Shown here: positions 10,758-59,008 of the stretch, one piece after another
Layout: every line of letters starts with the position of its first letter
Numbering within the stretch: the first letter of the stretch is position 1
Source of the DNA: Apostichopus japonicus
Taxonomy: Eukaryota; Echinodermata; Holothuroidea; Aspidochirotida; Stichopodidae
Assembly: GCF_037975245.1 (NCBI RefSeq)
Contig: NC_092579.1
Coordinates: 19,676,678-19,740,677 of the forward strand
DNA: 64,000 nucleotides
Reading direction: 5' to 3'
Position numbers and translations under genes: made by a program
Notes under the pieces: model-generated
The model's database searches: none
What the model was told of the DNA's origin: nothing
Seen by the model: the letters and a program-made list of their open reading frames with translations, nothing else

Positions 10758-10925
10758 AACAGGCGCGTAGCGAGGAATTTGCCAAGGGAGGGGCGAAGCC
10801 TGTAGGTAAATTATCTAAGTGTAGCGCCACCATAGGTTGGCGCGAAGCGTACAAGAAAATTTTGGCCGAAAATGCCTCCCAGATCGCTGGAAATGGCACT
10901 ACCCAGGCATTGTAAGTTGCATCTA
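10758..10925 (+). mobile_element. Internal hAT-like end with hairpin module
   Basis: CAGGCGCGTAGCGAGG at 10758 is followed by the same subterminal block as the outer end (GCGCCACCATAGGTTGGCGC, AGATCGCTGG). The matching segment is in copy 2 near 34085-34217 in opposite orientation, so this nested end is ancestral to the family. Its partner end is unclear. Confidence 0.6.
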
Positions 10926-11257
10926 AGCACTTTCTATTTTGAAATTACTTAGCGATATCATTTAAAAAAATGCTGAATGGGGGGGGGGCGGTCGCCCCCA
11001 TCCCAAAATGCGTCATGTTCCCCGACGACACGGTAGAGTTCGCGACCAGCCACAGATGGTTTCATAGCACAATTCTACACACGCGTTATGCTAGACCATA
11101 TATAGTATATATATAGATCATTAGTGAGAGAGGAAAATGGAAACGTCAAAAAAAATGGAGTTGTCGGTGTAAGGGGTAGGGTGAGGCACACTTTTACGAA
11201 ATCATTGATCCGTCACTTGCTACCCTTCAGCGCTGTAATGATGTCACTGTTCCTCTT

Positions 11258-11412
11258 TCTCTTCCCGGTGTCTTCGCGTTTTTCTTTTACTCCCTCCTTT
11301 TCTCCTTCTTCTCTCTTTCTTCTTTTTCTTTTCCCTTCCTTCCTCTCCTCCTCCTCTTTTTTCCCCTCTTTTTCCTTTTTTCTTCTCTTTTTTTTCTCTC
11401 CTCTTTTTCTTA
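11258..11412. repeat. Polypyrimidine tract inside hAT-like element
   Basis: About 150 bp of nearly uninterrupted C and T occur here. The purine-rich equivalent is present in the inverted copy at 33555-33680, so the tract is a conserved part of the element. Long frames on either strand are low-complexity artefacts. Confidence 0.9.
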
Positions 11413-33507: not shown

Positions 33508-35421
33508 CAGGTGCGTATCCAGGGGGGGGGCGTTGGGGGCGCGCGCCCCCCGGGTAAGGAAAAGAGGAGAGAATAAAAGAGAAGAAAAAAGGGAAAAGGA
33601 GGGGGAAAAAAGAAAAGGAGGAGAGGGAGGGAGGGAAAAGAAAAAGAAAAAAGAGAGAAAAAGGAAAAAAGGAGGAGTAGAAGATAGCCAAGACCTCGGG
33701 AAGAGAAAGATCCCTATTATATACACAGGGTAGCCAGTGACAGATCAAGGATTACGGAGGGGGTGTGCGCCTCACCCTACCCCTTACACCGACAACTCCA
33801 TTTTTGACGTTTCCATTTTTCCTCTCTCACTAATGTATCTATATAAATACTATATATGGTCTATCATAACGCGCGTGTGTGTGTATGGACGCCTTAAACA
33901 ATTGTACAATTGTGCTATATGGAACCAACTGTGGCTGGTCTTGAACTCGACCGAGTCGTCGGGGTACATGACGCATTTCGGGAAGGGGGCGACCGCCCCC
34001 CCCCCGAGCAAATTTTCTTTATGACATCGCTAGTAATTTCAAAATAGACAATGCTTAGATGCAACTTACAAGGCCTGGGAAGTGTCATTTCCAGCGATCT
34101 GGAAGGCATTTTCGGCCAAAATTTTTCTTGTACGCTTCGCGCCAACTCATCATGGCGCTTCGCTTAGATAGTTTGCCTACAGGCTTCGCCCCTCTATTGG
34201 CAATTACTCGCTACACGCCTGTTCGAATTTGTAAAGCAAAGAGCAGATAAAACATCATATCAGTGAGCATTGAAATGCATGTTCCACGATGAACAGCCTC
34301 AAAAACTGTCTATGTGTGTAGTTAAAGGCGTAGGAGCCCAATTGGATTTGGGGGCTGTAATGACTTGCCCGAAAAAAAAGCCAAAATTTTTCGCGCGTTC
34401 AACATATCAATGCCAATATCATTTAAGCAAGCATCGGTCATTACAGTGCATAGCATCATGTACCGCACGGTCCGTCAAAGTTGCACAGTATACCGATGCT
34501 ATGTAAACAACGAAATGTCTTATGTAGATGGAGAAAAATCATACAGATCCATTTATGTCAAAACTCTCTTTTACAAAGGTAATGTCGGCCAAGCTTACAA
34601 CTTTATTTTAATTACCAAGGAGATCATTTTTAAGCTATTCATTGCTATCTATTTTTCTTTCAGTAGGTGCCCGAAAAAGATGGGGAAAAATTTGGTTGGG
34701 GGGAGGGGGGCTGCAGCCACCGCCTCCTACGGGACCTACGCCTATGTGTGTAGTGTTCGCTTTCGATATACCTCATATCGGAAATATCTCCTATTTTTCA
34801 TTTCCTTCAACCAAGTTTTATAATAGCCATTATAAGAGCTTGCAATATTTCTACACCAATAAAATTAACTGTGTCGGAATTTTCCACAATTTCCTCACCA
34901 ACATTCTTCATCATACTTTCCTCTACTCGTGCAACTTTGACCTGTCTGTTAGGGATTCAAGGAGGTTTTCTATATTGCTTGTCCATAGATTGAATTTTGT
35001 GCAACATTATGGGTATGTTTTCAAGTGATTTTATTCACGAGAAATCTGAATTTTCAAATTCTCACCAAATAATGGGCTTAAAACCTTGAAAAGTGGGGCT
35101 TTCGGATATTGTGGGCCGTGACGTAGAATCACCTACAAAAGCAATCATCCATAGGACATGCAATCAGGTCGAACATGATGTGTGACTGGTGACAATCTGC
35201 AAAAAGGTTATGGATGGAAAAAACTTTTGGGAAACACTTGGTTCTCAGGCAAAAGTGTACATCTAGTTGGTCATTTTCAAGCCCGAGAAGTGCCATTTCC
35301 GGTGATCTGGGGGGTATCAAAACCAGAAATTTTCTTGTACGCTGCACGCCAACCGATGGTGGCGCTCCGCTTAGATAGTACTTCACGCCCCCCGGGTTAG
35401 AAAATCCTGGATACGCGCCTG
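33508..35421 (-). mobile_element. hAT-like non-autonomous transposon, copy 2, inverted
   Basis: Its ends are CAGGTGCGTATCCAGG and CCTGGATACGCGCCTG. The flanks share TTACT (33503-33507 and 35422-35426), a 5-bp duplication as in some hAT subgroups. Content runs as the reverse complement of 9339-11460: purine tract first, then hairpin modules near 34140-34165 and 35345-35375. Inside, 34323-34740 is itself bounded by AGGCGTAGGAG-type ends and TGTGTGTAG on both sides, an older nested element related to the one at 52933-53523. No transposase frame is present. Confidence 0.85.
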
Positions 35422-38400
35422 TTACTGGTATAAAATGGTGAGAACTCCAAAAGGAAAGTAACAGCGACTATTATTTTCAAAGTTTTACCTATTTTCCCCA
35501 CTGTGATTGTTTCAAAAACAGATTTGACATTCAGTTCTCTAAGAACTTAGAAGCAATATTCTGCCCGCAAACGGAACACGGTGGTTATTTCACCAACTTC
35601 TAAGAAGTCTATGCTGTTGAAGAGTATATGTTTCCATCTTAAAGAAAAACATAATAATTGGTAGTTAGCCAAACAAGGTAACAATCTGTAGACAAAGATC
35701 TCAACATATCAAGTTGGCAGTTTGCAACAAATAAAGCGTTATGTACACAGAGTAACAACATGGTGACAAACTTACCTCAACATCGGATCAGTTTGGTTGT
35801 AATAACTAATTACAAAACAGTTCATTTAAAGGGAGCACCTCCGAAGTCAGCACATGTGAGCAGGGGCGCAGCCACCATTTTGTGTACCGAGTAGGACAGG
35901 GGTGGGGGAGGGGGTCAAGATGCTATGTCGTCGAGGGGGAGTATTCTAAAGGGAAGAGCGTTGTTAAGAATCAATGCGTTAACATTAACATTTTTGGCTT
36001 GCACTTGTGAGCACTAAAAGAGTTAGCAAAGTTTAAAGGTGAATGCCTTGAATGCTGGAATAGCTAGAGAATTATTAATAGCACTAAACCCTTTATCTTT
36101 TTTTTAATTCGATTCATTCTTGGACTAAACGTCTGCCTAAGTTCATCACTTAGAACTTAAAACTTTATCAGAGTTACATACAACTGCTCGAATTACAATA
36201 GTGAAGAACAGAAGAAATTAGATAACACAACGTTCCATTGATATTGTTGAGCTAAGACCATCTATTTCATTTATACCAATCTTAGTGTTACCCCATATGT
36301 ATAGATAACAAAATGTCTAATACCAATCAGTTTTAAGAAAAAGATAAACACATAAAAAAAACAAATTATTGAAAAATGTAAACATGTAAAACGTTTGGTT
36401 TTTGCGATTTGTATTTTAACTCCTTCGTATATACATACGAACGAATTAAATACAAATCGCAACACCAAAAGTCTTTAAGTTCTTCTTATTTACACTATAG
36501 CATACTGGCCTATTTTAAAGGTCAAAGGTGAAAGGTCATCAGTATTTCCTCCAAAAAATGGTATGGCCGATCATGGTCGACTTTACCAAATATTTGACTG
36601 TGCCACCTTCTGTGAAGCCTTTGCCCTAATAACATTAACGCAATTATGATGATCTGATTTAACACTAAAAAATGGCTGGTAATATCTTGGATAGTCAAAC
36701 CTGTCGGAATGTAAGGTTTTTTTCTTTTCTTTTTAATTGTTTGCAATTTTATCAAGACAAATATGTGCGGATGGCATACTGATGACATTAATACAGGATA
36801 GGTATTTTGAAAACAATGTCCTTTCGTTGATAGTAAAATGTTTGTATTGAATTATTTCATCCGATTTTGGTTGGTTATAGTATACATTTGATGAAACATT
36901 TTTGCCAGTCAAAATGTTGAAATTTTGGCTTTTAATCTCATAATTCGACGTTTAATCATTTATTTTCATATCACTTGAGATTTCGAAATTTTATGCAAAC
37001 ATATCGAGCTTTTAAAGTCGGAAGTTTGAACTTTCTATGTCCCTTTATAAAAGAAAGGGCAAATGTATGTGACAGAGGAACTTGGTTGCAATGATTTTCC
37101 TCCATATGGGGACTTTACGTACTGTATTAACCAAAACCTGTGATCTCATGGGATATTTATTAGCTTGTTGGGATGAAAGAAATACTTTAAGCATCTAGCA
37201 ACTGTCATAGGGGCCATCTCATTAATGAAAAAAATATGAAGAAAAGTAGATTATGTACACAACTTTTGCCTCTCTGGAATTAGTACCCCATGAAACACCC
37301 ATCCCCCCCTTGTTCAAAAATGATTGCTAATTTTAGTATTTTTTTTATTTACATTGTATATACATTATTATAGTTTAGATCAAAGATTGATAAAAGATCG
37401 ACGATATTGTGCTTTAAAATTGTTTTATGGACCAAAGAAAGTTTAAGATGGGAAAAAAAACACATTATGCACAATGTTTAGAATCAAGTACTGAGTACAA
37501 TAATTAAAGTTTAGACAACACCCGGCATTGAAGGTTCTACCAGATAATACTGTATCGTTAGTATATCATTATTTCATTGATTCGATTAACTTGGATTGAT
37601 TTATGAAGAATTTCTTATAAACTTATAAAAGCGCGTAGGCCTATATATGAACCATATTTGTAGATCAGAAATAATAATAATAATAAAAGGAAAAAATATG
37701 GAAAGACATTTCTGTTTAGAAAGAATGGTACTTGCAAGTTCTACTTATTGAATAACTTTCAATTGGATCGATTATACATTTTCATCTCATGCTCGACTGT
37801 TATTGTGTGACGTCACGAAGGATGAATGTCGAAGAAGTGTTGAACAGTTAAATCAATCATTTCCTCTCTCGGATGAATGTATAAACTCATATAAGACGTA
37901 TTTTCAATCTAAATTGATTGACACTTATTCCAAAAAGACTGAAAATGTATCAGTTTAATGAGATCAGATTGAATCAGATTGGAATATCTCAATCTATGAA
38001 ATGAAGAGAGTAAACATATAATAAACTGTTATAAAAGAAAAAGCAAACCCAAAGATCACCTTAGTGTTTTCAGACAGAGATGCTTGTTAACCAAAACAGC
38101 AACAACTACAACAATAAGTTTCCCACTCGAAAAACAAATATTTCTACTTGCGAGATTTTATAACGTTCTAAAGTCATCTGAGAAGTCTTCACTTCTTTTC
38201 CAAGTTACTTTGTATGATGTTATAGTGGCGCAAGGAGGTAAGATCCTAACGTTTTCGTGTAGATTAAGTAAATTAGTTTAGTAAGTAAGTAAGAGCACTG
38301 TTGTTACTACAAGCAAAACAATTAAAAAAAAACAACATTCACATGAAAAAAAGGAAACATATTAGAGAATATACAAGCAAGACTGTAAACATTTAACAAC

Positions 38401-38944
38401 AAAACGCTGGTATATCTGTGACACAGACATTTGGCTTGACGAGAGGTGAGGGTAGGGGTCGGGAAAGGGGACTCTTGTTTAACATAAGCATCGTATATCA
38501 CGTGGAATAAAGATGCTGTTTGGGTTTGCTTCCGCTTTTTTGAGTTAACATCATAACACAGATTTGAAAATAATAGTACTTTCATTTTTCAACGGTTCAG
38601 TGGTAAAGTAATCAAGGACAAAATTGCACAAGTAAAGAATTAAGCTACTAATTTTTATTATTATTTAAAGAAAATCTGACATTTATCCTGAAGAGAAAAT
38701 AGTAGAAGTAGTGTCAAATTGAGTGACTTGCTTTCAGTGAAACCTTTTTAGGCATTCATAAAATGCTTAATTCAACACAAGCAAAAACTCTCCAGTTATA
38801 CTTAAATTGTTTGTTCATCAATTCTGAAACCATCCTTTTTGTTGCAATTTATACACAAAAAAAACACTGAAAATCAAAAAGAAAAGATATTTATATATAT
38901 TTACATATCATTCTTCCTTACAGATGACGTAATTACTTAATCAC
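35422..38944. other. Intergenic, no gene recognised
   Basis: The sequence is AT-rich. A single CAGGGGCGCAGCCACC at about 35871 resembles a hAT-like left end without a partner. There is an AAT run at 37671-37684. A donor-like CAACATCGGA/GTAAGTTTG arrangement on the minus strand at 35775 has no matching acceptor with an open frame. I see no supportable gene. Confidence 0.5.
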
Positions 38945-39757
38945 TTGAAAGCAACTGTTTTTTATATGTGTTTGGTTGGCCATTGTGACAACACTACAGA
39001 ACACTTTTTACTCAAAAGTAAAATTCAAATTGATCAAAAGGAAGACACATTGAACAGCGCAGATGAAGAAACTATAACGCGACAAACTCGAAACATATCG
39101 TTGAAGTCATCTTCGAAATACTTTTTCATCGATTTATGTTCATACCCGTCTGGCACAGTAAGGCTTAAGGCTAGGGATCAAGTAACAGCAAGCCTTAAGG
39201 CTAGGGATCAAGTAACAGCGAGCCTTAAGGCTATGGATCAAGTAACAGCAAGCCTTAAGGCTAGGGATCAAGTAACAGCAAGCCTTAAGGCTATGGATCA
39301 AGTAACAGCAAGCCTTAAGGCTAGGGATCAAGTAACAGTCAGCCTTAAGGCTATGGATCAAGTAACAGCAAGCCTTAAGGCTAGGGATCAAGTAACAGCA
39401 AGCCTTAAGGCTATGGATCAAGTAACAGCAAGCCTTAAGGCTAGGGATCAAGTAACAGCAAGCCTTAAGGCTAGGGATCAAGTAACAACAAGCCTTAAGG
39501 CTAGGGATCAAGTAACAGCAAGCCTTAAGGCTAGGGATCAAGTAACAGCAAGCCTTAAGGCTAGGGATCAAGTAACAGCAAGCCTTAAGGATAGGGATCA
39601 AGTAACAGCCAGCCTTAAGGCTAATGATCAAGTAACAGCCAGCCTTAAGGCTAGGGATCAAGTAACAGCAAGCCATAAGGCTAGGGATCAAGTAACAGCA
39701 AGCCTTAAGGCTAGCGATGAAGTAACAGCAAACCGTAAGGCTAGATGGATCAAGTAA
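38945..39757 (+). other. Doubtful frame across the minisatellite
   Basis: This plus frame has about 74 non-repetitive residues (first ATG at 38966) followed by about 19 copies of the decapeptide LKARDQVTAS or LKAMDQVTAS. A possible acceptor TTCTTCCTTACAG ends at 38923, but the frame has a stop at 38930 just after it. The minus strand is equally open, so openness is explained by repeat period. No signal peptide or family match is seen. It is probably not a gene, though expression cannot be excluded. Confidence 0.3.
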
Positions 39758-40038
39758 CAGCACGCCTTAAGGCTAGATGGATCAAGTAACAGCAAACCTT
39801 AAGGCTAGCGATGAAGTAACAGCAAACCGTAAGGCTAGATGGATCAAGTAACAGCACGCCTTAAGGCTAGATGGAGCAAGTAACAGCAAACCTTAAGGCT
39901 AGGGATCAAGTAACAACACGCCTTAAGGCTATATGGATCAAGTAACAGCAAACCATAAGGCTAAACGGATCAAGTAACAGCAAGCCTTAAGGCTAGGCAT
40001 CAAGTAACAGCAAGCCTTGATGCTATAGGGATCAAGTT
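39162..40038. repeat. 30-bp minisatellite, ~29 units, each with a 12-bp palindrome
   Basis: The unit is AGGGATCAAGTAACAGCAAG plus CCTTAAGGCT. From about 39166 to 39740 the period is exactly 30 bp. In the first third, units with AGGGATCA and ATGGATCA alternate, so there is a 60-bp higher-order repeat. From about 39740 the units drift to 29-34 bp with AGATGGATCA variants. Every unit carries the palindrome AGCCTTAAGGCT. Because 30 is a multiple of 3 and the unit lacks stops, frames of 270 (plus) and 207 (minus) codons stay open; the plus frame repeats LKARDQVTAS. Confidence 0.97.
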
Positions 40039-40613: not shown

Positions 40614-42080
40614 TTAACTATTGTTTTCCATGGGAGCATATAAATCTTTGAGCGGGTTTAAGACGCTGCTGCGCATCGGCATGTATTGTGAAGTTTCAGA
40701 CATATTACGGAATAATGAGACGGCATAAGACCCACTTGATTGACGAGAGTTGTCGCAGATATTATCAGATTCTTTCACATCAAACGGATCTGGTGAGGGT
40801 GGGATCAGGAGAGAGTTAAGCCTCTCGGGGGACTGTTCAATGGTTGTCTGTCTCGGTTCAGCATATACAAATCCCTCGATGTCTTTCAGTTTTACCAATT
40901 CGTTCGCAGTCATAGGTTCGTTTTGAACGTTACAGGACCTCTCCATATAACGAGCTTCTGATTCGAATGGGATCTCCTCATAATCGCAAGGGGATGTATG
41001 ATTACTCGAAGGAAGCACTTCTGGAAGACGTCGTTGGCTTTGCAGCAATGGCCAAGGTGCAGACTCTGATCTCTGGCCAATGACGGTGAGATTTTCTGTG
41101 CTTCTTCGTTGTTTTGCAGAAGCCTTCACTAGTACCGTTATCAATAGAACGAAGATGGCGAGGAAAATTGTACCAAGCGATACAATTGCAATTGACATCA
41201 CCATATTATCCTTTTCAAATAGTCCTTTCGATTCCTCCTGTAGAGATTTCTGCACAATTGGTGGCTCTATCAGTCCTTCATCCTCTGAGTCAGTGAGAAC
41301 ACCAATGTCTTGTGAGACCTCTTTAATGACGGATTGACTCGACGGGTCCATTGTTGTTATGGCAATCTCTGTTGTGAAATCGTCAGTACTTGTTAAGACA
41401 TCTTTGGCTGTAGTAACTTTGGGACAAATCTCAATATCTCGACGTGACAAATCAGAAAATGTCATCCCGTATCGGTCCATTGGAGTGTGACACTCCGGTG
41501 TTCCTCCTCGACAGGTCTCGAGCAAACTGTCGCTACCAGTATCAAGAAACCTCCGAAGGAGAGATGGAAGATCACATTCACAGTCCCAATAGTTGTCGCC
41601 AAGACACAAGATTGTTGTCGTGGGTAATGGTATTAGTACTTCAGATGTTATGGTAGCCAACAAGTTGTTGTGTAGATCCAGTTTCTGCAACATTGCAAGG
41701 CCTGCCAACGCATTTGGAGAAAAGTGGGAAATATAATTGTTACTGAGATCAAGAATTTTCATCTTCTCATTGTTTTGGAATATGTTGTTTTGGATGTCAT
41801 AATGAATCCGATTGTGTGACAAGTTTAGCTCTCTCAATTCCGTGAGGAGTTTGATCCTATTGGGCACTTGGTCGAGTCGGTTTTCACTGAAGTCAAGCTT
41901 TAAGGCCCTGGTGTTGATTGGAGGAAGTACTTCGTCATACAATCCAGAACAGTCGAAAATCGTGCCCATCTGACCATCAACGATGTCGTTGGTACAAGAG
42001 CATCGAGAGGGGCAGGAATAGGTTACAATCGCCAAAGACGAGAGGATAGGGATGAGCAAGATGATGAAAGTAGAGGACAT
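40614..42080 (-). CDS. LRR transmembrane receptor with tyrosine-motif tail
   Basis: A complete 488-residue frame in one exon. It has a signal peptide (1-21), an LRRNT Cys cluster (C23, C27, C29, C44) and leucine-rich repeats with LxxLxLxxN cores at about 60-69, 82-90, 108-115, 131-139 and 155-163. An LRRCT cap follows (WDCEC at 165-169, C190, C197), then a Thr/Glu-rich stalk, one TM (about 294-318) and a ~170-residue cytosolic tail. The tail has YEEI (Y367, Src-SH2-like), YAEP (Y406), and YMPM (Y466) and YAPM (Y481), both fitting the YxxM consensus for PI3-kinase p85 SH2 domains. The ATG follows ACACCAAG, 11 bases after a good acceptor (TTATTTATTGCACCTACAG at 42092 on), so a 5' UTR exon is likely. 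An extracellular recognition receptor is inferred; ligand unknown. Confidence 0.9.
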   Translation of the reverse strand: MSSTFIILLIPILSSLAIVTYSCPSRCSCTNDIVDGQMGTIFDCSGLYDEVLPPINTRALKLDFSENRLDQVPNRIKLLTELRELNLSHNRIHYDIQNNIFQNNEKMKILDLSNNYISHFSPNALAGLAMLQKLDLHNNLLATITSEVLIPLPTTTILCLGDNYWDCECDLPSLLRRFLDTGSDSLLETCRGGTPECHTPMDRYGMTFSDLSRRDIEICPKVTTAKDVLTSTDDFTTEIAITTMDPSSQSVIKEVSQDIGVLTDSEDEGLIEPPIVQKSLQEESKGLFEKDNMVMSIAIVSLGTIFLAIFVLLITVLVKASAKQRRSTENLTVIGQRSESAPWPLLQSQRRLPEVLPSSNHTSPCDYEEIPFESEARYMERSCNVQNEPMTANELVKLKDIEGFVYAEPRQTTIEQSPERLNSLLIPPSPDPFDVKESDNICDNSRQSSGSYAVSLFRNMSETSQYMPMRSSVLNPLKDLYAPMENNS

Positions 42081-42110
42081 CTTGGTGTAATCTGTAGGTG
42101 CAATAAATAA
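42081..42110 (-). other. Splice acceptor and 5' UTR start of LRR gene, copy 1
   Basis: On the minus strand TTATTTATTGCACCTACAG is followed by ATTACACCAAG and the ATG. The paralogue has TTTGCATTCACAG before the same 11 bases. Near-identity of the two genes ends within 3-4 bases past this boundary, which supports it being a true intron edge. Confidence 0.7.
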
Positions 42111-43699
42111 GGCAGCTGTTATTTACCATGAATTATCAATGGGAAACTGAATCAGGCGTTGTGCACATGATCTTAAGCATGCAGTTGCATTCGCCACGCA
42201 TCATGGCACTGAACCGTAAAACCGTCATCAACATCTACCAAAAATATGCAAGAATGTGAAATCATTGGCAACACTGTCTCCACCACAGTCGTGCTCCTCA
42301 TGTACCATAGCATTACCACGTCATAATGTCATAATCTCAATTTAAACACTCCTCAATTTCTGGGAATAGTTCGAGGCGGGACGAAACCCTAAAGAAATTT
42401 CATCTGAAATATCGAAACATCTTAATACGTCTATAGAATTACCTGCGTCACGTTATAGTCTGAACCCGCGCAAAGGTACTACTGGTTTTGACATGTTGAA
42501 CAGATTATCAATTTCCAATATATAAAGATCGCATCGCCAATTTAGATAAAATTTACTTATCAACCTAAATTTGTTTTTGTCATATGGAGATCTGACTTCC
42601 GCACATGTCATTATCACCCAAATCTTGCAGCCAGCTTTCAAACTTCGCTCGATAATACGATACGTGTTCATCTCAACATATTGGTTAAATATATACGCTT
42701 CGTAAAAATGGGCGTACTTAGTTCGAGCGTGGTTTCCAGGTGGATATCGTCAAGAATGGAAATAAAAGTTGAAGCCAATTACTCATCACTAGGGGTTCAG
42801 AAAATTTTAATTAATTTTGGTATACTGAGCCGTTTCAACTTTCTTACCGGTAATAACTTTGACGAGATTGCTGCGCATACAATTCTTTAGTTTATCCCCC
42901 ATGGATATTTTATGAACTAAACCAATTTTGCTAAGTTAAATGGTTCTTGTAATTATATTTTTAACGGCCCAGTTGGAGTATGATGGATAAATTTATGACT
43001 TTTATTTAGCTCAAAACTGACGTGGTTCTGTTGATTAATATATATTTGTGATGATGGAGTCCAATAAAGTAAATAAGCTGCTTTCGAACCATTAGTAAAC
43101 CTTTATCTTTTCTATGGAAACAACAAATGGAGTTCATTAACAGAATAACCGTGGATCGAATATATATATACCGTCGCATGAAAGCCACATTCAAGTTCAT
43201 TGCAACGTAATAAATTCTATTTTTAACATACAAGCCAACATAGAGTGGTGTTGATGTATATAAATGTAATAAAACCACTGGATATAGCTCTCTGCGTGGC
43301 AACCAACCAAAGCGTTCACTTATAGGGTATATAGGTTATACCAATGATGAACACTAAACGATCAAGTAGCTGGTTGCGTTGATTGCGTGTCACTTATACA
43401 ATTAAGGACTCACAACTAAAAGTTAACTTTCGTTACGTTTTTACTCTTATTCGAGTGAACATTTTACCGAACTTTTCTAACAGGGAATATCCCTGATTAT
43501 TAGCTTGCTTGTCAAGACCAAACGTACTTTTGGTTGTAAAAAGGTATTCGTGTAGAGGAATATAGTTTGTATCCTCACACATACGGTTAGCCTTTGGACA
43601 AACTTTGGAGATTCGTTTAGTAATAGAATAATTACCAAGTGCGATATAAGAAATCAGAGAGCTATATTTGGCACTCCAAAACAAACATATACCGATATA

Positions 43700-43747
43700 T
43701 GTTATGTTGTTTTGTGTTATTTTATGTTATGTTATGTTATGTTATGT
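43700..43747. repeat. TTATG pentamer repeat
   Basis: GTTATGTTGTTTTGTGTTAT and following units reduce to repeated TTATG, perfect at the right end. Confidence 0.85.
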
Positions 43748-44298
43748 AAAATATTCACGGACAAACTCACAATATTTAAAGTTGTTTGTTGACAGTCTCG
43801 TGTTGACTTGCAAACTGTTTAGCCACGCGCACGTGGCCTTCGATATTTTGCAACTTTGTTGCATTTTTGTCTTTGTTTTTGCATCGCACAGCAATGATTG
43901 AATGGTTATTGCGTTTTTGTTTTGAACCAGTTATTCCTGTTTCAACCATGGTATTTTTCCGAGAAATATCTTTTAGTCCAAGTATTAGAACCCTTTAATG
44001 ACCATCATGCAAGTCCAGTTGTCATGTACCGGTAGCTATGATACAGCTCATTTGGTTCGCACTCCATTATATGTACATGAATTATTGTAGTACAAGTCGT
44101 AACTATACGACACACATTTATAGAGATCCAAATTGCAGCGCTTTCCTTGTTGCAACTTGAAAAGTTTGCAATCTTATTGCTTATAGCAAATAAGTGAAAC
44201 AAAAGAAACCCGGCCTTGTTTTTTTTTTTTGCATCTTGCTTAAGCGTATAACGAAAGCAAAACATTCCTCAGCAACGCCTGTTTGCTTAGAAAACATA

Positions 44299-44413
44299 AT
44301 GTCACCCAAGCATGATCTTTATGGTACCTGGTTTCGCAATGGGAGGCATCTCAAGGCGGACTCGCATTTCAGTTTTCAAACAACAACACAGCAAAGGCAT
44401 ATATGTTTCGCGA
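44299..44413 (+). CDS. Candidate first coding exon, weak
   Basis: From an ATG the frame reads MSPKHDLYGTWFRNGRHLKA then DSHFSFQTTTQQRHICFA, followed by two tandem donor-like sites (GTAAGATAACG at 44414 and GTAAGACAC at 44425). The composition looks protein-like, but no partner exon or family was recognised. It could be chance. Confidence 0.22.
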
Positions 44414-46456
44414 GTAAGATAACGGTAAGACACTGACATTGTGTCCTCATTGTTTTATTTAAGGGTGAGAGGTTAAGTGGTGAGATCAGGATGGGGAAGG
44501 GGAAGAGGGTAAGGGTCTACTACAACGGCGAAAATATATATTTTTTTAATAAGTTTCTTATACCGATATATATACACATTATAAGATTTGATAATAATAC
44601 ATTTACTAGCGATGACAACATCTACGACATGGAGACGAACCGGCAGTGATATATGAAACGTTATCACATCGATGTGCAACCATCGGTGGTATGTTCTTCC
44701 CCAATCCCTCATTTAAACTATATGGGAATGTGTGAAGTACAGGCAGTACCCCATATCTCATTGAAACAGCCTGTCTAACTCTCATTTTAGGTTTATGATA
44801 GAAAAAGGCCGTTATTTTGTGAGATCCAAAACCTTTGAAGGTCATCAGTTATCGTATCAAACTTGCTGAAAGTCTTTTCAAAGTTTAAAGACGTTGGCCT
44901 TCCCATAGCCTACTTACTATTCCTAGTCATTGAAGAGTGTTAAAAAATATAAACCAAAAAAGTGAGATTGTTTTCAATTTGGCCTTAATATGATCGAGGA
45001 AATGTATATATTGGTGCCCATTATTTGACTTTTTCTAGCATAGTTTGGCCAATACTGATGACCCTAAAGTCCAACCGGTAAACGTAAGCCATCATTTCTT
45101 TCCAATATGCACGAAATATCTCGCCCACAATTTTTTTTTTCACACGACACACTGTTATACGACCATCGTTTATTGCGCATGCGTATATCTGCGGCTTCCC
45201 GACGTGATGTATTTTCTTTTGGTTATTTACAGTTTTATAAACTAAAGGCTGTTTAGGCTAAATGTTGTTTATGCTGATTCATGTTTATATATCTACAGCA
45301 CATTTAATTAACTATGATATATCATATATAAAGCAATCAAATAAAGAATATTTCTTTTAACAGTACATTTCTGAAATATTATTCTGCCATATCGGGGAAC
45401 TTGTCCAAAAAGACGCAATGGTGCAACCAGCTGCTAATTTTCACGCGATGATAATAACAAAACCTTGTCCAATGTTTAGTGTGCAAATAAGGGCTAAGCC
45501 CGTACGGGATTTAATCTTATTAATGGTGTTACAGGGCTGGGATCATTATTCAAAATTGTTGAACAGATGAATGTTAGAATGGCAGGGTAAAGCAGAACAC
45601 ACCCCCACCCCCACTTAAAAAGACACATACATACATCGGACTCCCCCTGGTTCAACCCTACTCTATTAGCGCACTGCAGGGTGTAACGTAAGTCGAATAT
45701 TCAGTGTGTGGTTTCTACTCCAGGGTGCGGGAGAGGGTAGCATAAACATTTCAGGAGAAGGACTCAAGGGTTTCATGGATATTTACTTGTCATGTGCTTA
45801 AAATGTAAAATATGCGTAAAATATGGGGAGAAGGGTTTTGGGATACCGGTTTTTTCGGTAAACCTCACCCCTCCCAAAACCTCCAAATCCGTCTTTCCCC
45901 ACCAGTCTGTGTATGCCGGCCTGATAAAATACATGTACATGCATAATACTGGTGCCCATGAAAATCTGGTTACAGACCTTCTTCTAAATCTCAGAATCAA
46001 ACTAACGGAGAACAATCTACACTCCATGCACCGACAGTGCATGCATATTTAGTTTTTTTTTAAACCCGGAGAAATATAAGATAAAGAATATTGTCTGCTC
46101 AATTTCGTAATGATCTAAAGGAAAAAAATAATTTCTCCCGATGGCCAGACCTGGCACCTCGCGCCACTGATCTCTTCCTGCCATCTCTCTAGAAACGAAT
46201 CTGAGTTTTTAACCAATCTTACACCTCCTCCATCCATCTCTATTTCTCTCCTCTTCTTTCTATACATCATTACCCAGTCATCATTAACCTTCTCTGAAAG
46301 ATCTACACGTAGTTAATATTTATTTTGTTTAATGGTACTAATGGGTTTCACACTCGAGATGGCTCGTTTATAATTGCTTTGACACTTGTATATACTTCAC
46401 TTAAATTATTTAAAAAATAATAATTAATATGAAGATTCCATGTAAACACAGTGCTG

Positions 46457-46530
46457 ATTGGATAACACAGTTGGTAGGAAACATCTCGTTTATTCTTTAC
46501 GGCACATGTTCAAATTCTGTTCTAGCCATT
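46457..46530 (+). mobile_element. tRNA-like SINE fragment
   Basis: GGATAACACAGTTGGTAGGA resembles an A box (TAGCTCAGTTGGTAGAGC). Forty bases on, ATGTTCAAATTCTGTTC resembles a B box. The stems are decayed, so this is a SINE head or tRNA relic and not a functional tRNA. Confidence 0.4.
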
Positions 46531-48280
46531 TTAAGCCTATATAGATAAAACAATACTTTTGCAGCAATTCTATTTTGTTCTATATATAAAGTAAATATAT
46601 GAGTCCCATATGGCACACAACTTATAAAACTCCTATAATTTCGCCTAAGTAAATCTCCGCTCAGTGTTACTAGATAACAAGTCGCCCTGATAAAAGGATA
46701 TTTGTTAAACTATACTTATCAAATTATATATCAATGCACTGAAACTATAGAAAAAAACCCCATAAGAATAAAAACAAAAAAACAGTGGGCTTACCTTCTG
46801 CAAAATCAAACGGAAGCGGCAGCTACTTCAAAGTCAATTCACAAAGTGACAAAAAAAATGATCGGCTGGTCTTGATCCGCCCCTCTCAGTGAACAACTGT
46901 AAAATTAATCATCAACTAGCTTCTCGATGTATACTCTTTGTTTTTACAAGTTACCCGTCTTTGTGTGTTTGGATCACAGAAGCAATGATTCACAACAGTG
47001 GCGTCTTCTACCCTGGTTATGCAAATATGACTTTCGATTCTGTTTTGTTTTAAATCTGTCCAGGTTAGAATCTGTTTGATTAGCAAAATGTTTTTCTGCC
47101 GATACAAGAGCCTTATATCTACGGCTCTGGCCGATGCTGTTAGAGGGCGCCCTCTTTAAATAACACCACAAATGCCTACACCACCACCACCAAAAAAAAA
47201 AAAAAAAAAAAAAAACACGTTGCAAGTTTCATTGGATGGTCAGTTCTAGTACATAAGACAGTGACCATTGGTTTCAATCACATTTAGCTGATTTATTATT
47301 TACGAATAGATAATTGGACTGCGCACCTACAAGAGCGACCTATACGTGTTTGGTATATCTGGATACTTTCGATTGTTATCCAGGTGTGAAAAGTTTCGCA
47401 CAACTGATATCCTTATCGAAAGTAAAGTGCGAAGACTAATCAAGAACAAAGGGCGGAAAACGAGAGAAAATCAGAACGAAGAGTAAACAACAAACACAAC
47501 TTGGATGGTAGCCATGAGCCGGGATGTGAAAGATTTCATTAACAACAACCACTACCACTACCTCACAATTATTATTACCAAAACAGGCCAATATTACTTC
47601 AAGTTAATCGATATAACTTGGGGTTAAGAAATAGAAAGGAAGGGATTGGGTAGGGAACGATTAGTCTGCATTCAGATTACCTTATCGGGAAATGGTTATC
47701 GAGGAATGACGCACTTAATAGGAATCTCCTGCCCCCCCCCCCCCTCCTTCCATCTCACTGCACCGAAATTCCTGTAATATCACTGATGTTAGTTGGAGAA
47801 TACGAATTATAATCCAAAAGCATTTCATGTAAAACTCTATCCCGCCAGCTGGTAAAACCCGGTCCGCATTCCCACTGCACTCACTCTCACATACGCACTC
47901 ACCCACACACCCACGCACACACTCGGCTCCCGATCCCAAACATAGTTTCCTCCAGGGAAAATCCAGGTATACCCTGATATGAAAGCGACTTCTAAACTAA
48001 TGAAGAGGAATAGTTACTCGAAAAAGTTTCGAGTTTTGTTTTAACCAGTTGAAACACGCACACCCCCTTCAATTTCAAGCATTAGTATTGGAGAACTTCA
48101 GATCGTCATGAGAGATCTAACTCGTTCTTATTTCCAACTGCGCAGTAGTTCCCAACTGCTGTTCAGCTAAACATAAACTAGGATTAGGGACTGAAAATTA
48201 ATTGGTTTGAAAGCAGTTTGTCTGCATCATATATACTACCTAACGTTCCATGTAAGAAATAGCATGCAAGTTGTTCAAAG

Positions 48281-49950
48281 CAGGGACGTAGCCAGGGGGG
48301 GGGGGGGAGCAGGGGGAGCGACCGCTCCCCCCTTTCAGTGTCGATTTTTTTTTAAACTGTCGTTTTTTAGCATGGTATTTTGTCAGTGCTCTTTTGATCT
48401 TGAATACTCGTCAGCTCCGTTAACTCGATTGTAACCGTAGTAACATTCACGCCTACTGATTCAACTACTTACTTAGTTTGGCAGATGCAATTAGCTAAAT
48501 TTAGCTTATAGCCAATTACAAGCCTACAGTTGGCCACTGTGTAATAAAATACATATTGCCTACCTAACCGCACTCTATGGAATGTCACGAACTGTATGCA
48601 CAACAACGTCGACAACGTTCGTTCAATGAGTCGTCCTAAGGTGTTGTACGAACAGCATGTTATGAAGCTAAGCTAGCAATCGTACGTGATACGCACTTCC
48701 TGTAATAATTATTACACTGCTAATACACTGCGATAACGATATTTGTTTTTAGGCCACTGCATATCTGGCATTATTACAAAATATGAAAGTTTATATTGTC
48801 CATCAGTTACGTTCGTCAAATGTATTAAAGTCCAGACATTGGACAATAAACAAGAATCATCCTACTGGAAAAAAATTGCAAAAGAGCACTATGTTTGTCT
48901 TTCTGATATATTATGTAAAAGAACATGTAAAAGAATTCAAACAGGAAACAAAATCTGCTGATTATGATATCATATGATCAGGGGCGTAGCCAGTATGTAG
49001 CACTGTAGGCCCGGGCCTACATTTTTTTGGCCAAGTTATATTTTTTTAAAAACACCCATAATTCAAATCGATAAGCTTGCTGGACGAGTTTAAGAGTCTA
49101 TAGACAGGAAAAACTATTGAAATGAACGTAGCAAGAATATGGCTAAATTAGGTGACCTATTCTTCTGTCATCTAGGCTGTCATTTCTATCGCGTGCCGTT
49201 TCATTCAACACTCTACCCGCCGAAAAGTTTGTTTTTTAACATGTAGTTAAGAACCCGTTTACGCAGATAATATTTCAGTTGAGAAAACAGTTGAGAAATT
49301 TGCGTCAGATTGCAATGGTCGGATACCTCTCGCCTTCTCTTATTAGGCTAACTTAAACATTTAATAGCTACAGTTGTATCAAAGACAATTACTGGCTATA
49401 GTTATATCAAAGACATTTCAGGCCTATCTTTGTATCTATAAGTATCAGAAGTTGAAACGTAAGACTACTCTGTACATGTACCTTGCTAATTTTAAATACA
49501 TTATGTAGTATTGAATTAGACATTTTCTAGCTACAGATGTATCAAAGACAATTACTGGCTATAGTTGCATCAAAGAAATTTCAGGCCTATCTTTGTATCT
49601 ATAAGTATCAGAAGTTGAAACGTAAGACTACTCTGTACATGTACCTTGCTAATTTTAAATACATTATGTAGTATTGAATTACGTACTATTTTAACTCATT
49701 TTTTTTTGTGGGTTTAAAAGTGATATTGAATGAGGTGTCTCAAGATAGCAAGAGGCCAGGGAACCAGAATGAACACTCGGGAAGGGCCGTTTCCGGCCAT
49801 CTGGGGGGTTTGTAAATCCAAAAATTTTCTTGAACGCTCCGCGCCAACCGATGGTGGCGCTCCGCTCAGATAGTCGTGCCTACAACTTTGAAAATCCACA
49901 TCAATCGCAAAAAGTGCTCCCCCCCTTTCAAATTCCTGGCTACGTCGCTG
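48281..49950. mobile_element. hAT-like element, 1.67 kb, 8-bp target duplication
   Basis: The ends CAGGGACGTAGCCAGG and CCTGGCTACGTCGCTG are inverted repeats with one mismatch. The flanks are both GTTCAAAG (48273-48280 and 49951-49958). The right end carries the subterminal hairpin module (GCGCCAACC...GGTGGCGC at 49840-49866). Inside are a 163-bp tandem duplication (49366-49691) and a second CAGGGGCGTAGCCAG at 48980 without a clear partner. A 72-codon Cys-rich frame (48746-48961) begins after a TTTGTTTTTAG acceptor-like site; it has no recognisable transposase features. Confidence 0.88.
49366..49691. repeat. 163-bp direct tandem duplication
   Basis: Copies start at AGCTACAGTTGTATCAAAGA (49366) and AGCTACAGATGTATCAAAGA (49529). 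They differ at only a few positions, so the duplication is recent. It lies entirely inside the 1.67-kb hAT-like element. Confidence 0.92.
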
Positions 49951-50159
49951 GTTCAAAGTATTTTCGAGGTCTTTGGTTGAAAAAAAGTTTTAAACGAAGC
50001 TTAACCACAGAAAACAGTTAAGTTACATCCTGTTATTTTTACCGTGAGCACTTTTTTTTTTTGTCTTAGATACATTCTTGAAACTTGTAATGAAAAGTTA
50101 ACCAACATGTGGTACTAAAACATCGAGACTTTAACCGTATGATCATGTACATTGGTGAC

Positions 50160-50305
50160 CAGTGGCGTGCGCAAAGAGAGGGGGGGAGGGGGGGGGGGGT
50201 CGGCGTCAACGAACCAAGGGCAGCTCCACTCCTGGATAAAATCCTTCATTCGCCACTGGCCCTTCCCCTAAAATGCAGCACCTTGAAATCTGGTCAACGC
50301 CACTG
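50160..50305. mobile_element. Short hAT-like MITE, 146 bp, perfect 8-bp target duplication
   Basis: It begins CAGTGGCGTGCGCAAAGA and ends TCTGGTCAACGCCACTG. The flanks are both TTGGTGAC (50152-50159 and 50306-50313). An extra internal CGCCACTGG (50251-50259) resembles another terminus. It lies about 480 bp beyond the 3' end of the truncated LRR gene. Confidence 0.87.
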
Positions 50306-50789
50306 TTGGTGACTCGTGTTCATTGTACCGAACGTCGAAGTTAGTATGTTTTTATTGCTGTGTAAAGGAGACAAAACACTTCCGAACAGGATCACTCGAT
50401 TTCACCAGACGAATATAATAGATGGCAGTATGACAAATTACATGCTATTCGTAAACCCGACTATATATGTCGGATATAAAGGAATTCTTCATCGCTATTA
50501 GAACTGCTCAAATTTAGCCTTTTCCATGGGTGAGCACAGAATTGGTTTGCCCGAGGTCGCAGTGAAAGTTTTTAATCAACTTCACTTGATGACAATAACT
50601 TACTTTGGAGCAATGTTCCGTCAGTTTGATACACTGCTGGCCTATGAACAACTGGTTATGGAATTGGCAATACTTTCTAACACAGCTGAAGGCATGGATT
50701 TTGGTATCGCAAGTTGACAATAAGTTTTCTAGGCACTGCAACTTGCAGAAATGGGTAAGGTGAAAACTTTGATCTCTGGGCAATGATGG

Positions 50790-51797
50790 TTAGATCATCT
50801 CTGCTGCCTCTCTCTGCTCTGCTTCGCTTGCATACGTTTTCAAAAGTAACTTTATCAGGACAACGGAAACCACAAGAAAAATGGCGCCAAGAGATATCGC
50901 AAATGACATCAAGATTTTATTTTGAAATAATCCTCTCGGTTCCTTATGAAATGCTTTCTCCGAGGTTGGCGGCTTCGTCATTCCTCCATCCTCCGTCGGA
51001 ACAATGAGTTTATTTATGTCTTGCGATACCACTCCCATAACCGTGTGACTTGGCGGGTCCTTGCTTGATAAAGCAACCTCTGTTGTGAAATCGTCAGTAC
51101 TTGTTAAGACCAGGACATCTTTGGCTGTAGTAACTTTGGGACAAATCTCAATATCTCGACGTGACAAATCAGAAAATGTCATTCCGTATCGGTCCATTGG
51201 AGTGTGACACTCCGGTGTTCCTCCTCGACAGGTCTCGAGCAAACTGTCGCTACCAGTATCAAGAAACCTCTGAAGGAGAGATGGAAGATCACATTCACAG
51301 TCCCAATAGTTGTCGCCAAGACACAAGATTGTCGTCGTGGGTAATGGTATTAGTACTTCTGATGTTATGGTAGCCAACAAGTTGTTGTGTAGATCCAGTT
51401 TCTGCAACATTGCAAGGCCTGCCAACGCATTTGGAGAAAAGTGGGAAATGTAATTATTACTTAGATCAAGAATTTTCATCTTCTCATTGTTTTGGAATAT
51501 GTTGTTTTGGATGTCATAATGAATTCGATTGTGTGACAAGTTTAGCTCTCTCAATTCCGTGAGGAGTTTGGTCCTATTGGGCACTTGGTCAAGTCGGTTT
51601 TCACTGAAGTCAAGCTTTAAGGCACTGGTGTTGATTGGAGGAAGTACTTCGTCATACAATCCAGAACAGTCGAAAATCGTGCCCATCTGACCATCAACGA
51701 TGTCGTTGGTACAAGAGCATCGAGAGGGGCAGGAATAGGTTACAATCGCCAAAGACGAGAGGATAGGGATGAGCAAGATGATGAAAGTGGAGGACAT
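50790..51797 (-). CDS. Truncated LRR transmembrane paralogue (335 residues)
   Basis: It has the same signal peptide, LRRNT, repeats and LRRCT as the 488-residue receptor. Over residues 1-238 I count three substitutions (R58S, I76T, R176Q) and a two-residue VL insertion after 229. After DFTTE similarity drops to roughly half: the stalk and TM (ILMSFAISLGAIFLVVSVVL) are recognisable but diverged. The frame stops 15-20 residues after the TM (SEAEQREAAEMI). Bases beyond the stop still resemble the paralogue's ENLTVIGQRS region in another frame (two extra bases), so the stop comes from a frame change, and the tyrosine-motif tail is absent. It could be a decoy receptor, a form fused to another exon by splicing, or an early pseudogene. 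Confidence 0.85.
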   Translation of the reverse strand: MSSTFIILLIPILSSLAIVTYSCPSRCSCTNDIVDGQMGTIFDCSGLYDEVLPPINTSALKLDFSENRLDQVPNRTKLLTELRELNLSHNRIHYDIQNNIFQNNEKMKILDLSNNYISHFSPNALAGLAMLQKLDLHNNLLATITSEVLIPLPTTTILCLGDNYWDCECDLPSLLQRFLDTGSDSLLETCRGGTPECHTPMDRYGMTFSDLSRRDIEICPKVTTAKDVLVLTSTDDFTTEVALSSKDPPSHTVMGVVSQDINKLIVPTEDGGMTKPPTSEKAFHKEPRGLFQNKILMSFAISLGAIFLVVSVVLIKLLLKTYASEAEQREAAEMI

Positions 51798-51830
51798 CTT
51801 GGTGTAATCTGTGAATGCAAATATGTAAAG
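51798..51830 (-). other. Splice acceptor and 5' UTR start of LRR gene, copy 2
   Basis: The minus strand reads TTTGCATTCACAG, then ATTACACCAAG and the ATG. The 11-base leader is identical to copy 1 and the presumed intron is unrelated. Confidence 0.68.
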
Positions 51831-52932
51831 TACTTATGTGTCATCGTGCATCAACGACTGATCTATGGTCTGTCTTGTTAATGTGATCTTGTGTCCGTTC
51901 TTTACACCAAGAATGTCAATCGTATAGGTAATGGTTATAGATAATATTCCTAAATATGCTATAGATGCGATACTATTGAGAACACCTTCAACCGAAAATA
52001 CCATTCAGGTTCGAAGAGTATTATCTGTTACGTCCTGTTGACGTAGGCCTTATAGTCGTTTCTTCGCAAATAATATAATAGCTAGCTATATGTTGACAAG
52101 TGGTTTATAGCCTTTTTAAAACATATTCCATTTATTGATATATTTAGGTCTTTCTAACGGCGACTTAAATAAACCGCGATTTCTGTGAATAAGTTCGGAG
52201 AGCCCAACATGCATGACAGTTCTTTTGGAAATGCTTCCGTCGGAAAAGGATCTGCTCATCTTAAGAAACATGTTTATGATATAGTCAGAAATTGTGATAG
52301 TTGTATCAAGTTCTGTGATAAATGTTCTCAAGTTTTAGCGAGGCAGCCAAAACACGTTGTTGTATTTATATTAATCAAAAAAATATCACAATATGAGTTG
52401 TTTATTTGGTTGTATTGTTCTGTTTAATTTCATGAAGACTAATAATTTATAATGTCGTACGGTACCTATTGGTATACAAACAGGGTTTTGGATTCCAGAG
52501 ATGAAATCAAATGCCACGAGAATTTTATATGACATATACTTTGACGATGTAGTGTGTCAGTCATTTTCAATAAAATGATAACTGATCTCGGCTACGGTCC
52601 GTAACATGTTTGATATCAGTATTGAACGTATATTGGTCAAACCGAGTAAACGAATCATACAACAGAAGTTAAATTAGCGAGAGGCTATAGTGTTTTTCCA
52701 ACTTGCTAGCACATGCCAAGTTGGTGGGTGATTTGATTGTTCATTTAAAAATAACGGAAAATAAAAACTTGAAAAATTATACGATGGCTTCTATCCATCA
52801 TCATCACATGAAATATAAGAAATGTTTCGTGTTCAAAATTGTGACGAAGATGCCTTAACGTTACATGATATGTGTACCATCACGTTAAGCTGGGTACAAA
52901 CGATTTTTTTTCTTCGAACCTACACTAAGGCC
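51831..52932. other. Upstream flank of LRR copy 2, no gene recognised
   Basis: A plus frame at 52185-52427 has a CDSCIKFCDKCSQ cluster, but it lacks splice sites or a family match and is probably chance. No first exon or promoter for the LRR gene was identified. Confidence 0.4.
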
Positions 52933-53523
52933 CATAGGCGTAGGAGGCGGGGGTTGGAGGGCTGCAGCCCCCCCCCCAACCAATTTTTTTTATTGAAAAT
53001 TCGGGCAATATGCTGAGAATTTTTCGGGCACCTAATACAAGAAGTAATTTGCAATGTGCTTTTCAATGCTTAAACTTATATTATTATTATCATTATTATT
53101 GAAACGACCTCCCCAATAATTCGAACCTACACTAAGGCCCATAGGCGTAAGAGGCGGGGGTTGGAGGGCTGCAGTCCCCCAACCAAATTTTTGTGTGAAA
53201 ATTCGGGCAATATGCTGAGAATTTTTCGGGCACCTAATACAAGAAGAATAATTTGCAATGTGTTTTTCAATGCTTAAACTTATATTATTATTATCATTAT
53301 TATTGTAACGACCTCCCCAATAATTATAACCAATATGGAAGGATAATAACACGGAAAATGATTGTATGTTATTAGCATGTGATGTAATAACCGATGAATG
53401 CCTGTATGATATGCACATTACCATGTGGAAGGAGCGCGCGAAAAAATTTTGGTTATATTTTTCGGGCAAGTCGTTACAGCCTCCCCCCCCCCCCCTCAAT
53501 CAAATTAGGCTCCTACGCCTATG
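52933..53523. mobile_element. hAT-like element with CATAGGCGTAGGAG ends and internal duplication
   Basis: The start CATAGGCGTAGGAGGC and end GGCTCCTACGCCTATG are inverted repeats. The flanks are CTAAGGCC (52925-52932) and GTAAGGCC (53524-53531), 7 of 8 matching. A 207-bp tandem duplication (52915 and 53122 starts) includes the left end plus the host flank CGAACCTACACTAAGGCC, so it arose after insertion. A related element is nested in the copy at 33508-35421. Confidence 0.78.
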
Positions 53524-57671: not shown

Positions 57672-59008
57672 CAGTGGCGTAGCTACGGGGGGCCTGAAAT
57701 TGCAGACATGAGATCCATATTTTCAGGCTAGGTACATGCTGCTTAGAATACTCGGGAAGTGCCGTTTCCGGCCATCTGGGGGGTTTGTAAAGCCAAAAAT
57801 TTTCTTGTACGCTCCGCGCCAACCGATGATGGTGCTCCGCTTAGATAGTCTTACGTTCAGGCGCGGCTGGACCAGTCAGACCCCCCCCCCCCCCCTGTCA
57901 CAAATCCTGCATCCGCCCCTGATATGTCATTGAATATTCCACAAAACAACTTTTTATGTCCACGAAACTGTCGAAACATGATTTTCACTACTGGTAGAGA
58001 TATAAAATATTGGGAATTCTGAATTTCCTGCAAACTCGGGCTGTGCCTGTTCAATACTCACTACTGTATCGCCTTAAAAAATGATGAGTGGAAATAGTTT
58101 CTCCAGGACCGTATCGTATCGTGGGTATCGAGTGCGTCTGATATACGAACGCACGTAGTACGTACGTACGTACGTCTATGATGATATGCACTGTACTGTA
58201 CTGATAAAAACAGGTGAATTTCACTCCATGGGAGTGATCACTGAGCACATTCCGGTATAAGAGTGAATTTCCACTCCATTGGAGTAAATCTTAACTCCTA
58301 ATAGAGTTATATTCACTCATATTAGGAGTGAGGGTTAACTCCAATAGAGTTAAATTTTACTCTTAATTTGAAGTGCGCCGAGTGATCACTCCAATGGAAT
58401 GAAATCCACTCATTTGTTTTTAGAGTGTTGCTAGATATATGAAGAAGAAATTTACATACCAATACATGTTATCGGTCATCGATTGGCACAAAAAGCCAGA
58501 TTCTGATGACAGCTGCCTCAAGAAACCCAATAAATGGCCTAATAAGTACCGAGCCATCAATGTGGACCATTACCGAAACATCGATGCGTGTTAGTCTTCC
58601 ACCCCCTTCCTCTAATGCTATTTAAGTCCACATGTGGGCATATCCTGCAAATCTACCGGTAGCCCACAGGGGTTTGAGTTGGGAGAAAGGCCTTGACAGC
58701 TTGAAACGACAAATGATGCCAACTTCCCTCAAGTTAAAAGTCTGGCTGAGTTGGCAAGGCCAGTCAGCATGAAAGAGAAAAAACTTTTTTTGCATTTCTG
58801 TCATCAAAGTTGCACATCTTTTTGGTTGCTATTTTGCCTCACAGGTGCCATCTCCTGCGATCTGGGGGGTGCTGAAATCTCAAATTTTCTCTGTACGCTC
58901 CGCGCCAACCAAGGTGGCGCTCCGCTTAGATAGTAAACTCCTCCCCCCACAAGAAAGAACAGCCCCCCATGGCCCCCCCCCACTCAAAAAATCCTAGCTA
59001 CGCCACTG
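57672..59008. mobile_element. Nested hAT-like element, 1.34 kb
   Basis: The start CAGTGGCGTAGCTACG and end CCTAGCTACGCCACTG pair as inverted repeats. The flanks are TGCGTGAT (57664-57671) and TGCGTGTA (59009-59016), 6 of 8 matching. The hairpin module occurs near both ends (57818-57845 and 58905-58925), in the same orientation, so two related ends have been combined. Confidence 0.7.
58199..58433. repeat. Foldback element of ACTCC/GGAGT palindromes
   Basis: The outer arms ACTGATAAAAACAG...TTTCACTCCATGGGAGTGATC and GATCACTCCAATGGAATGAA...TTTTTAGAGTG are about 50-bp imperfect inverted repeats. Between them are further short palindromes: ACTCCATTGGAGT, TTAACTCCTAATAGAGTTA and TAACTCCAATAGAGTTA. 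It is a MITE-like foldback lying inside the nested hAT-like element. Confidence 0.82.

Follow-up and report, generated by a model that had tools for sequence, protein, structure and literature searches.

How two neighbouring receptor genes can share an almost identical extracellular part and then diverge abruptly towards the membrane is the question raised by a locus of the sea cucumber Apostichopus japonicus (NCBI RefSeq assembly GCF_037975245.1, contig NC_092579.1, positions 19,676,678 to 19,740,677 of the forward strand), a stretch of 64,000 nucleotides that is here called the window and whose own numbering is used below. The two genes, A and B, encode receptors of single-pass membrane type with leucine-rich repeats (LRRs). 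Both lie on the minus strand, with their starts 9.7 kb apart, and each consists of one open coding exon that starts right after an inferred splice acceptor. The features that define the comparison are as follows.

40614..42080, minus strand: coding sequence of gene A including the stop, an open frame of 488 residues in a single exon (codons 42080-40617, stop 40614-40616)
50790..51797, minus strand: coding sequence of gene B including the stop, an open frame of 335 residues (codons 51797-50793)
41367..42095, minus strand: homogenised tract of gene A, which runs from the ACAG of the acceptor through codon 238 (DFTTE) and differs from B by 12 base changes and one 6-base indel
51078..51812, minus strand: homogenised tract in B, from the same comparison against A
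42092..42093, minus strand: AG of the inferred 3' splice acceptor in gene A, at which the similarity stops (sequence and alignment)
51809..51810, minus strand: AG of the inferred 3' splice acceptor in gene B (sequence and alignment)

The divergence step between genes A and B

Over codons 1-238, A and B differ in 12 codons, nine of them silently and three with a replaced residue (R58S, I76T and R176Q), and by one 6-base indel, a recount that agrees with the original prediction; a thirteenth change lies at the tract edge (A 41366). Synonymous divergence (dS) in these codons is 0.059 (bootstrap range 0.025-0.102) and nonsynonymous divergence (dN) is 0.005, as against a dS of 0.98 (0.63-1.66) and a dN of 0.44 in the next 94 aligned codons. 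The bootstrap dS ranges inside and outside the tract do not overlap, and this comparison, which had been proposed together with the prediction, thus places the step at silent sites. Among fourfold sites with a shared residue, 7 of 99 differ inside the tract and 10 of 18 outside. The best single break falls at A 41367/41366, equivalent to B 51078/51077 and directly past DFTTE, with a chi-square of 198 that is reached in none of 2,000 permutations (largest permuted value 24). The sudden 3' drop had been predicted at exactly this point. Its depth had been put at roughly half identity, which is too steep a figure for the sequence just beyond the step (65-75% identity per 60 bases) and applies only after the membrane helix. 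In terms of residues, 216 of 219 are identical in the ectodomain and 35 of 79 in the stalk and helix. At the 5' edge, the acceptor ACAG is common to both genes and is followed by three mismatches, then TTGCA, and then upstream sequence that cannot be aligned, in line with the earlier description of a similarity that ends just 5' of the splice acceptor.

The changes within the tract are spread evenly (13 changes including the one at the edge; Kolmogorov-Smirnov p 0.75), and 3 of the 12 are replacing, as compared with 78% expected (P = 1.6e-4). This even and mostly silent distribution indicates that the shared ectodomain is under constraint, and fits a single (or late last) overwriting event followed by point mutation under that constraint. 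Since the step is present at silent sites, selection at the protein level alone cannot produce it. Partial gene conversion, one of the two causes put forward originally, is supported by the silent-site step and is, on the sequence comparison, very probably the cause of the A/B step. When 681 bases of the tract were searched as DNA against the whole genome, A and B were the sole places returned, and low-stringency comparison of the A/B flanks gave only the mutual overlap of the query stretches together with interspersed and tandem repeats.

Read by eye, both proteins run from a signal peptide through an LRRNT-type cysteine-rich cap (CPSRCSC), four LRRs and an LRRCT-type cysteine-rich cap to a stalk and a membrane helix, the caps and the number of repeats being taken from this reading. 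Pfam detects LRR_8 in A (E 5.5e-15) and in B (E 2.8e-15) and LRRNT in A under the cut-off (E 0.033), and no TIR or other inner domain was found in either protein by Pfam (TIR up to E 1). Among the best 60 of 257 matches, the relatives of A with a solved structure belong to extracellular LRR proteins in general, including the acid-labile subunit, LGR4/5, LRRC15, variable lymphocyte receptor (VLR) B and others. The VLRs of lamprey and hagfish have an LRRNT-LRR-LRRCT architecture, and their incomplete germline gene is completed from LRR cassettes. A VLR-like protein is described from amphioxus (PMC4731796). A and B resemble VLRs in their LRRNT-LRR-LRRCT module, with VLR B among the relatives just listed, but VLR identity is ruled out by complete germline frames with a membrane helix and no hint of somatic assembly. 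In the same way, they resemble Toll-like receptors in combining extracellular LRRs with a helix, and TLR3 and TLR5 are among those 60 relatives of A, but the lack of a TIR match rules out this identity too.

Other tandem leucine-rich repeat pairs

The assembly searched comprises 671.6 Mb in 35 contigs, the window lying on contig C19; the protein searches of the genome score the best candidates only, and the family counts are therefore lower bounds. A search with A found at least four further family members (E 3e-19 or better), other LRR genes following at E 1e-14 and worse, and a search with one of these members, Y19, agreed (A and B at E 1e-25 or better, next match 8e-14). The four members form two tandem pairs, X13/Y13 on contig C13 and X19/Y19 on C19, the latter at a distance of about 3.2 Mb from A/B, and X/Y are 30% identical to A/B. 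X13 and X19, like Y13 and Y19, are 92-98% identical in all parts fetched, upstream DNA included, and this uniformity indicates a block duplication of the X/Y pair. Within the family, the pairs are arranged head-to-tail with the shorter-tailed gene upstream (Y13 is broken and not judgeable), and a Y-E-x-I-P motif is common to the tails of A, X and Y. Searches by tblastn with A and B over 100 kb on each side of the window gave no additional relative.

Between X and Y, identity is 46 and 45% upstream (unalignable) and 80% from the exon start through LRRNT, rises to 94 and 96% from LRR1 through LRRCT, and is lower again over the stalk (84-87%), the helix (83-86%) and the aligned tail (64-67%). The columns at which both X differ from both Y number 183 of 378 upstream, 31 of 198 from the exon start through LRRNT, 6 of 507 from LRR1 through LRRCT, 26 of 279 in the stalk and helix, and 57 of 215 in the tail; because these fixed differences are common to both copies of the pair, the homogenisation is older than the block duplication. 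Silent changes between X19 and Y19 amount to 5 of 110 in LRR1-LRRCT and 34 of 169 elsewhere (p 1.6e-4). X/Y thus appears as a second, conversion-like case of LRR-restricted copying, with edges less sharp than those of A/B. A common origin for the duplications that gave A/B and X/Y, in which A would go with X and B with Y, is unsupported by the inner parts (identities of 35/79 for A-B, 20/64 for A-X19 and 11/62 for B-Y19). In the X19-Y19 tail, dN is 0.53 and dS 0.33 (92 codons, uncertain alignment), and this excess of replacing divergence hints that selection on the signalling part is diversifying or relaxed.

A third pair, C5a and C5b (757 and 777 residues), lies 8 kb apart on contig C5 and is tied to A only as LRR proteins. 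From the first cysteine of LRRNT to the last of LRRCT (439 codons), the dS of this pair is 0.065, and the module segment scores 1006, as compared with a maximum of 27 in 1,000 shuffles. Identity is 32% for the signal peptides and, in a forced alignment with silent sites saturated, 31% for the stalk, helix and tail, and the upstream DNA is unalignable. C5a and C5b constitute a two-member family (next genome match E 3.7e-30), and both frames are intact. Kinship of their inner parts at E 1.4e-9, obtained from threonine-rich stalks without adjustment, fell with composition adjustment, and comparison outside the module did not establish an older paralogy. For this module overwriting and capture are indistinguishable, and capture is as good a reading as conversion. 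The 5' edge of the C5 module lies inside the coding sequence, between the signal peptide and LRRNT, so that an edge of this kind needs no splice site. A copy made through cDNA, which the 5' edge of A/B at the acceptor could suggest, is unneeded: the A/B intron is unalignable, so that conversion could not extend into it, and the C5 edge is intra-coding.

In all, 13 tandem LRR sets were compared, hand-picked from the hit lists of the protein searches and thus a non-random sample from which other listed sets were omitted. Three show strong steps (A/B, X/Y and C5), and the ten others have no strong step, six being even, one mild and three uninformative. The further stepped paralogues for which a survey had been proposed were thus encountered in this part of the genome's LRR genes, as the conversion-like X/Y and the shared-module C5 pair. 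The even sets are a C19 cluster at 4.7 Mb, C13 at 23.8 Mb, C11 at 8.0 and at 11.7 Mb, C16a, and C10; five of them rest on 0-2 silent changes in the inner part, and C10, an old tandem pair, on many (dS of the ectodomain 1.42, of the inner part 1.55). The mild step is that of C16b (silent changes 15/270 vs 4.5/38), and the uninformative sets are C16c and C19d (zero silent change) and C3 (frame off the fetched stretch, helix not found). At the level of sequence, a homogenisation limited to the ectodomain is established in A/B and X/Y, as is a recently shared LRR module in C5a/C5b. All three stepped sets have at least one member with a tyrosine-bearing tail of more than 90 residues, and in the even sets the protein stops no more than about 40 residues past the helix; the set C19d combines a tail of about 110 residues with the absence of a step, but has zero silent change. 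This association of the step with a long tyrosine-bearing tail was noticed post hoc and is a lead only. Two further LRR gene pairs, at C16:28025600 and C16:28056000 (30 kb apart, identical in every compared codon) and at C19:4752000 and C19:4767700 (16 kb apart, identical over about 2.2 kb compared), are either very recent duplications or assembly duplicates.

Membrane helices, tails and competing explanations

The inner parts of A and B, in which the two receptors differ, comprise the following features.

41127..41204, minus strand: membrane helix of A (MVMSIAIVSLGTIFLAIFVLLITVLV), from hydropathy
50841..50915, minus strand: membrane helix of B (ILMSFAISLGAIFLVVSVVLIKLLL), with a lysine near its inner end, from hydropathy
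40617..41126, minus strand: 170-residue cytoplasmic tail of A, containing the motifs YEEI (367), YMPM (466) and YAPM (481), from pattern search
50743..50799, minus strand: A-like tail remnant in B, 57 bases picked from the alignment and 81% identical to A 41040-41096

YEEI is a ligand of Src-family SH2 domains, and YxxM a ligand of PI3K SH2 domains. The B protein ends 16 residues past its helix, and the tyrosine-bearing tail of A is absent from it. The tail remnant lies out of the frame of B and mostly past its stop; 11 extra bases upstream shift the frame, and the 11 changes in the remnant are distributed 4/3/4 over codon positions, which fits a sequence no longer read in that frame. Most simply, B would once have had an A-like tail that has since been lost. 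A reading of the B tail across a 35-base intron, weighed by eye, was dropped, this length being too short for an animal intron.

The explanation that fits best overall, and is probably right, is a conversion limited to the ectodomain between old tandem paralogues, the copies being kept as a useful receptor pair. A and B are old tandem paralogues of one single-pass LRR receptor, between which germline gene conversion very probably copied about 730 bases encompassing the splice acceptor, signal peptide, LRR module and upper stalk; the silent-site step shows the ectodomain as overwritten, with the membrane helix, tail, intron and flanks left as they were. The twelve point changes, mostly silent, would have come later. 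X/Y would have undergone the same copying, and the unrelated C5a/C5b would share their LRR module through overwriting or capture. By analogy with vertebrate paired receptors, the copies may have been retained because two receptors with the same target and different inner parts are useful. A would then signal via its tyrosine motifs, and B, almost without a tail, would serve as a decoy or act via a partner. The ectodomain would be the ligand-binding part, and A and B would have a common ligand, be co-expressed and give different signals.

Two vertebrate systems are the closest points of comparison. The CEACAM proteins of Xenopus are paired receptors of immunoglobulin (Ig) type that conversion keeps matched, whose tails carry either immunoreceptor tyrosine-based inhibitory or switch motifs (ITIM/ITSM) or motifs like the activating one (ITAM), and whose partners lie in opposite orientation, an arrangement there called necessary (PMC5112662). 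By contrast, A and B are LRR receptors in the same orientation, and A has no ITIM or ITAM. In primates, Siglec-11 and Siglec-16 are neighbours about 9 kb apart whose extracellular parts are near-identical through repeated conversion; one partner has signalling motifs in its tail and the other has none, and one partner is often broken (PMC5701461). A/B resemble this pair as neighbouring genes with a near-identical ectodomain and signalling motifs in one tail only, but the Siglecs are Ig-type lectins arranged head-to-head, for which binding and expression were measured. In the cited cases, paired receptors matched by conversion belong to vertebrate Ig-type families, and among the literature matches listed, screened by titles and abstract openings, no LRR pair with this pattern was found. 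It can tentatively be proposed that the animal has a set of paired LRR receptors separate from the vertebrate Ig-type ones, in which tandem genes would bear one ligand-binding LRR module on inner parts that differ, being tyrosine-signalling or tail-less, and repeated germline copying confined to the module (by conversion in A/B and X/Y, by conversion or capture in C5) would keep the pairs matched. If this is true, the coupling of a single recognition surface to two signals arose in a second receptor fold, the LRR, and the signature of it occurs more than once in this genome. Silent-site steps between tandem receptors offer a simple screen for such pairs in any animal genome, and A/B, X/Y and C5a/C5b are concrete candidates for tests of ligand and signal.

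That A and B function as true paired receptors is possible, though somewhat doubtful. They have the near-identical ectodomains and different inner parts of such receptors (tails of 170 vs 16 residues), and an activating partner would have a short tail and a charged residue within the membrane; the tail of B is short, and its helix has a lysine (VLIKLLLK, where A has threonine) close to the inner end. Several observations weigh against this function or against the best-fitting explanation as a whole. An inhibitory partner would carry an ITIM or ITSM, and a pattern search of the tails of A, C5a and C5b gave no canonical form of either motif, nor of ITAM; A instead has YEEI and two YxxM. The lysine of B is not in mid-membrane. 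The upstream members look partly decayed, the tail of B being frame-shifted and Y13 (C13:12212000-12213800) having lost its frame within the LRR region and gained a stop in the tail, which also fits neutral conversion into a fading gene. In X/Y the divergence falls and rises gradually around the module (identity 94-96% inside vs 80-86% on either side), so that repeated events, or one of greater age, are likely, and exchange between X and Y after the duplication of the pair has one supporting column and no clear sign. For C5a/C5b, the composition-adjusted comparison of inner parts gives a best E of 0.34, plus a short PPxYES[VI] match.

The main rival holds that conversion was neutral, chance copying into a decaying neighbour whose upstream gene (B or Y) is fading, with no pairing function. 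The frame shift of the B tail by 11 bases, the lack of codon-position bias in its remnant and the broken Y13 are what would be expected of such fading. However, the B frame is intact across 335 codons, the pairwise A-B dN/dS in the stalk and helix is about 0.39-0.45 with an interval below 0.75 (a value for both genes jointly, not for B alone), only three of the twelve tract changes are replacing, and Y19, the duplicate of Y13, has an intact frame, as do both C5 members; we consider this rival rather unlikely. Module capture, by which a fresh ectodomain copy would have been recombined onto the inner part of another receptor, making one member a recent chimera, draws on the C5 pair, which outside LRRNT-LRRCT has no significant kinship, upstream or in the inner parts. 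In A/B and X/Y, by contrast, the inner parts are clear paralogues at the same position in the same exon (35/79 residues alike in A/B and 53/73 to 57/73 in X/Y), so that overwriting in place is simpler there, and capture is improbable as the general explanation. An assembly artefact or uncollapsed haplotypes would be suspected because near-identical stretches 9.7 kb apart are a common site of error; against this, the window contains no N, the tract flanks are unrelated except for interspersed repeats, both genes are on one 32-Mb contig, the 13 changes are distributed along the tract and the pattern recurs in other pairs, and an error of this kind is very improbable. Purifying selection alone, the other cause originally put forward, in which a constrained ectodomain and an unconstrained inner part would do without conversion, agrees with the very low dN of the tract but has next to no probability left, contradicted as it is, unless silent sites of just this tract are themselves selected, by a step carried by silent sites and by comparisons in which the ectodomain is not inherently slow (A-X19, 31% identity in the module and equally 31% in the stalk and helix; X13-X19, silent divergence even along the gene at 7/109 vs 14/219, p = 1; and the C10 pair).

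Surroundings of the pair

Outside A and B, the window gave no tRNA or Rfam match, and in 10 of its other open frames Pfam found nothing over any family's cut-off; viral contigs scanned with A gave no match. Just downstream of A, positions 39035-39980 hold a tandem array with a 30-base unit, across which a plus-strand frame (38933-39754) is open as LKARDQVTAS repeats, with Pfam matches only under cut-off. Downstream of B, two adjoining direct repeats of 163 bases (49353-49678) are 96% alike, and upstream of B a unit of about 200 bases (52913-53331) is repeated once in tandem, its pieces being 89-95% alike. Inverted copies of an interspersed element occupy 9338-11393 and 33575-35422, 22-26 kb apart and with arms 82-96% complementary, and shorter relatives of this element lie at 49771-49884 and 57746-57859.

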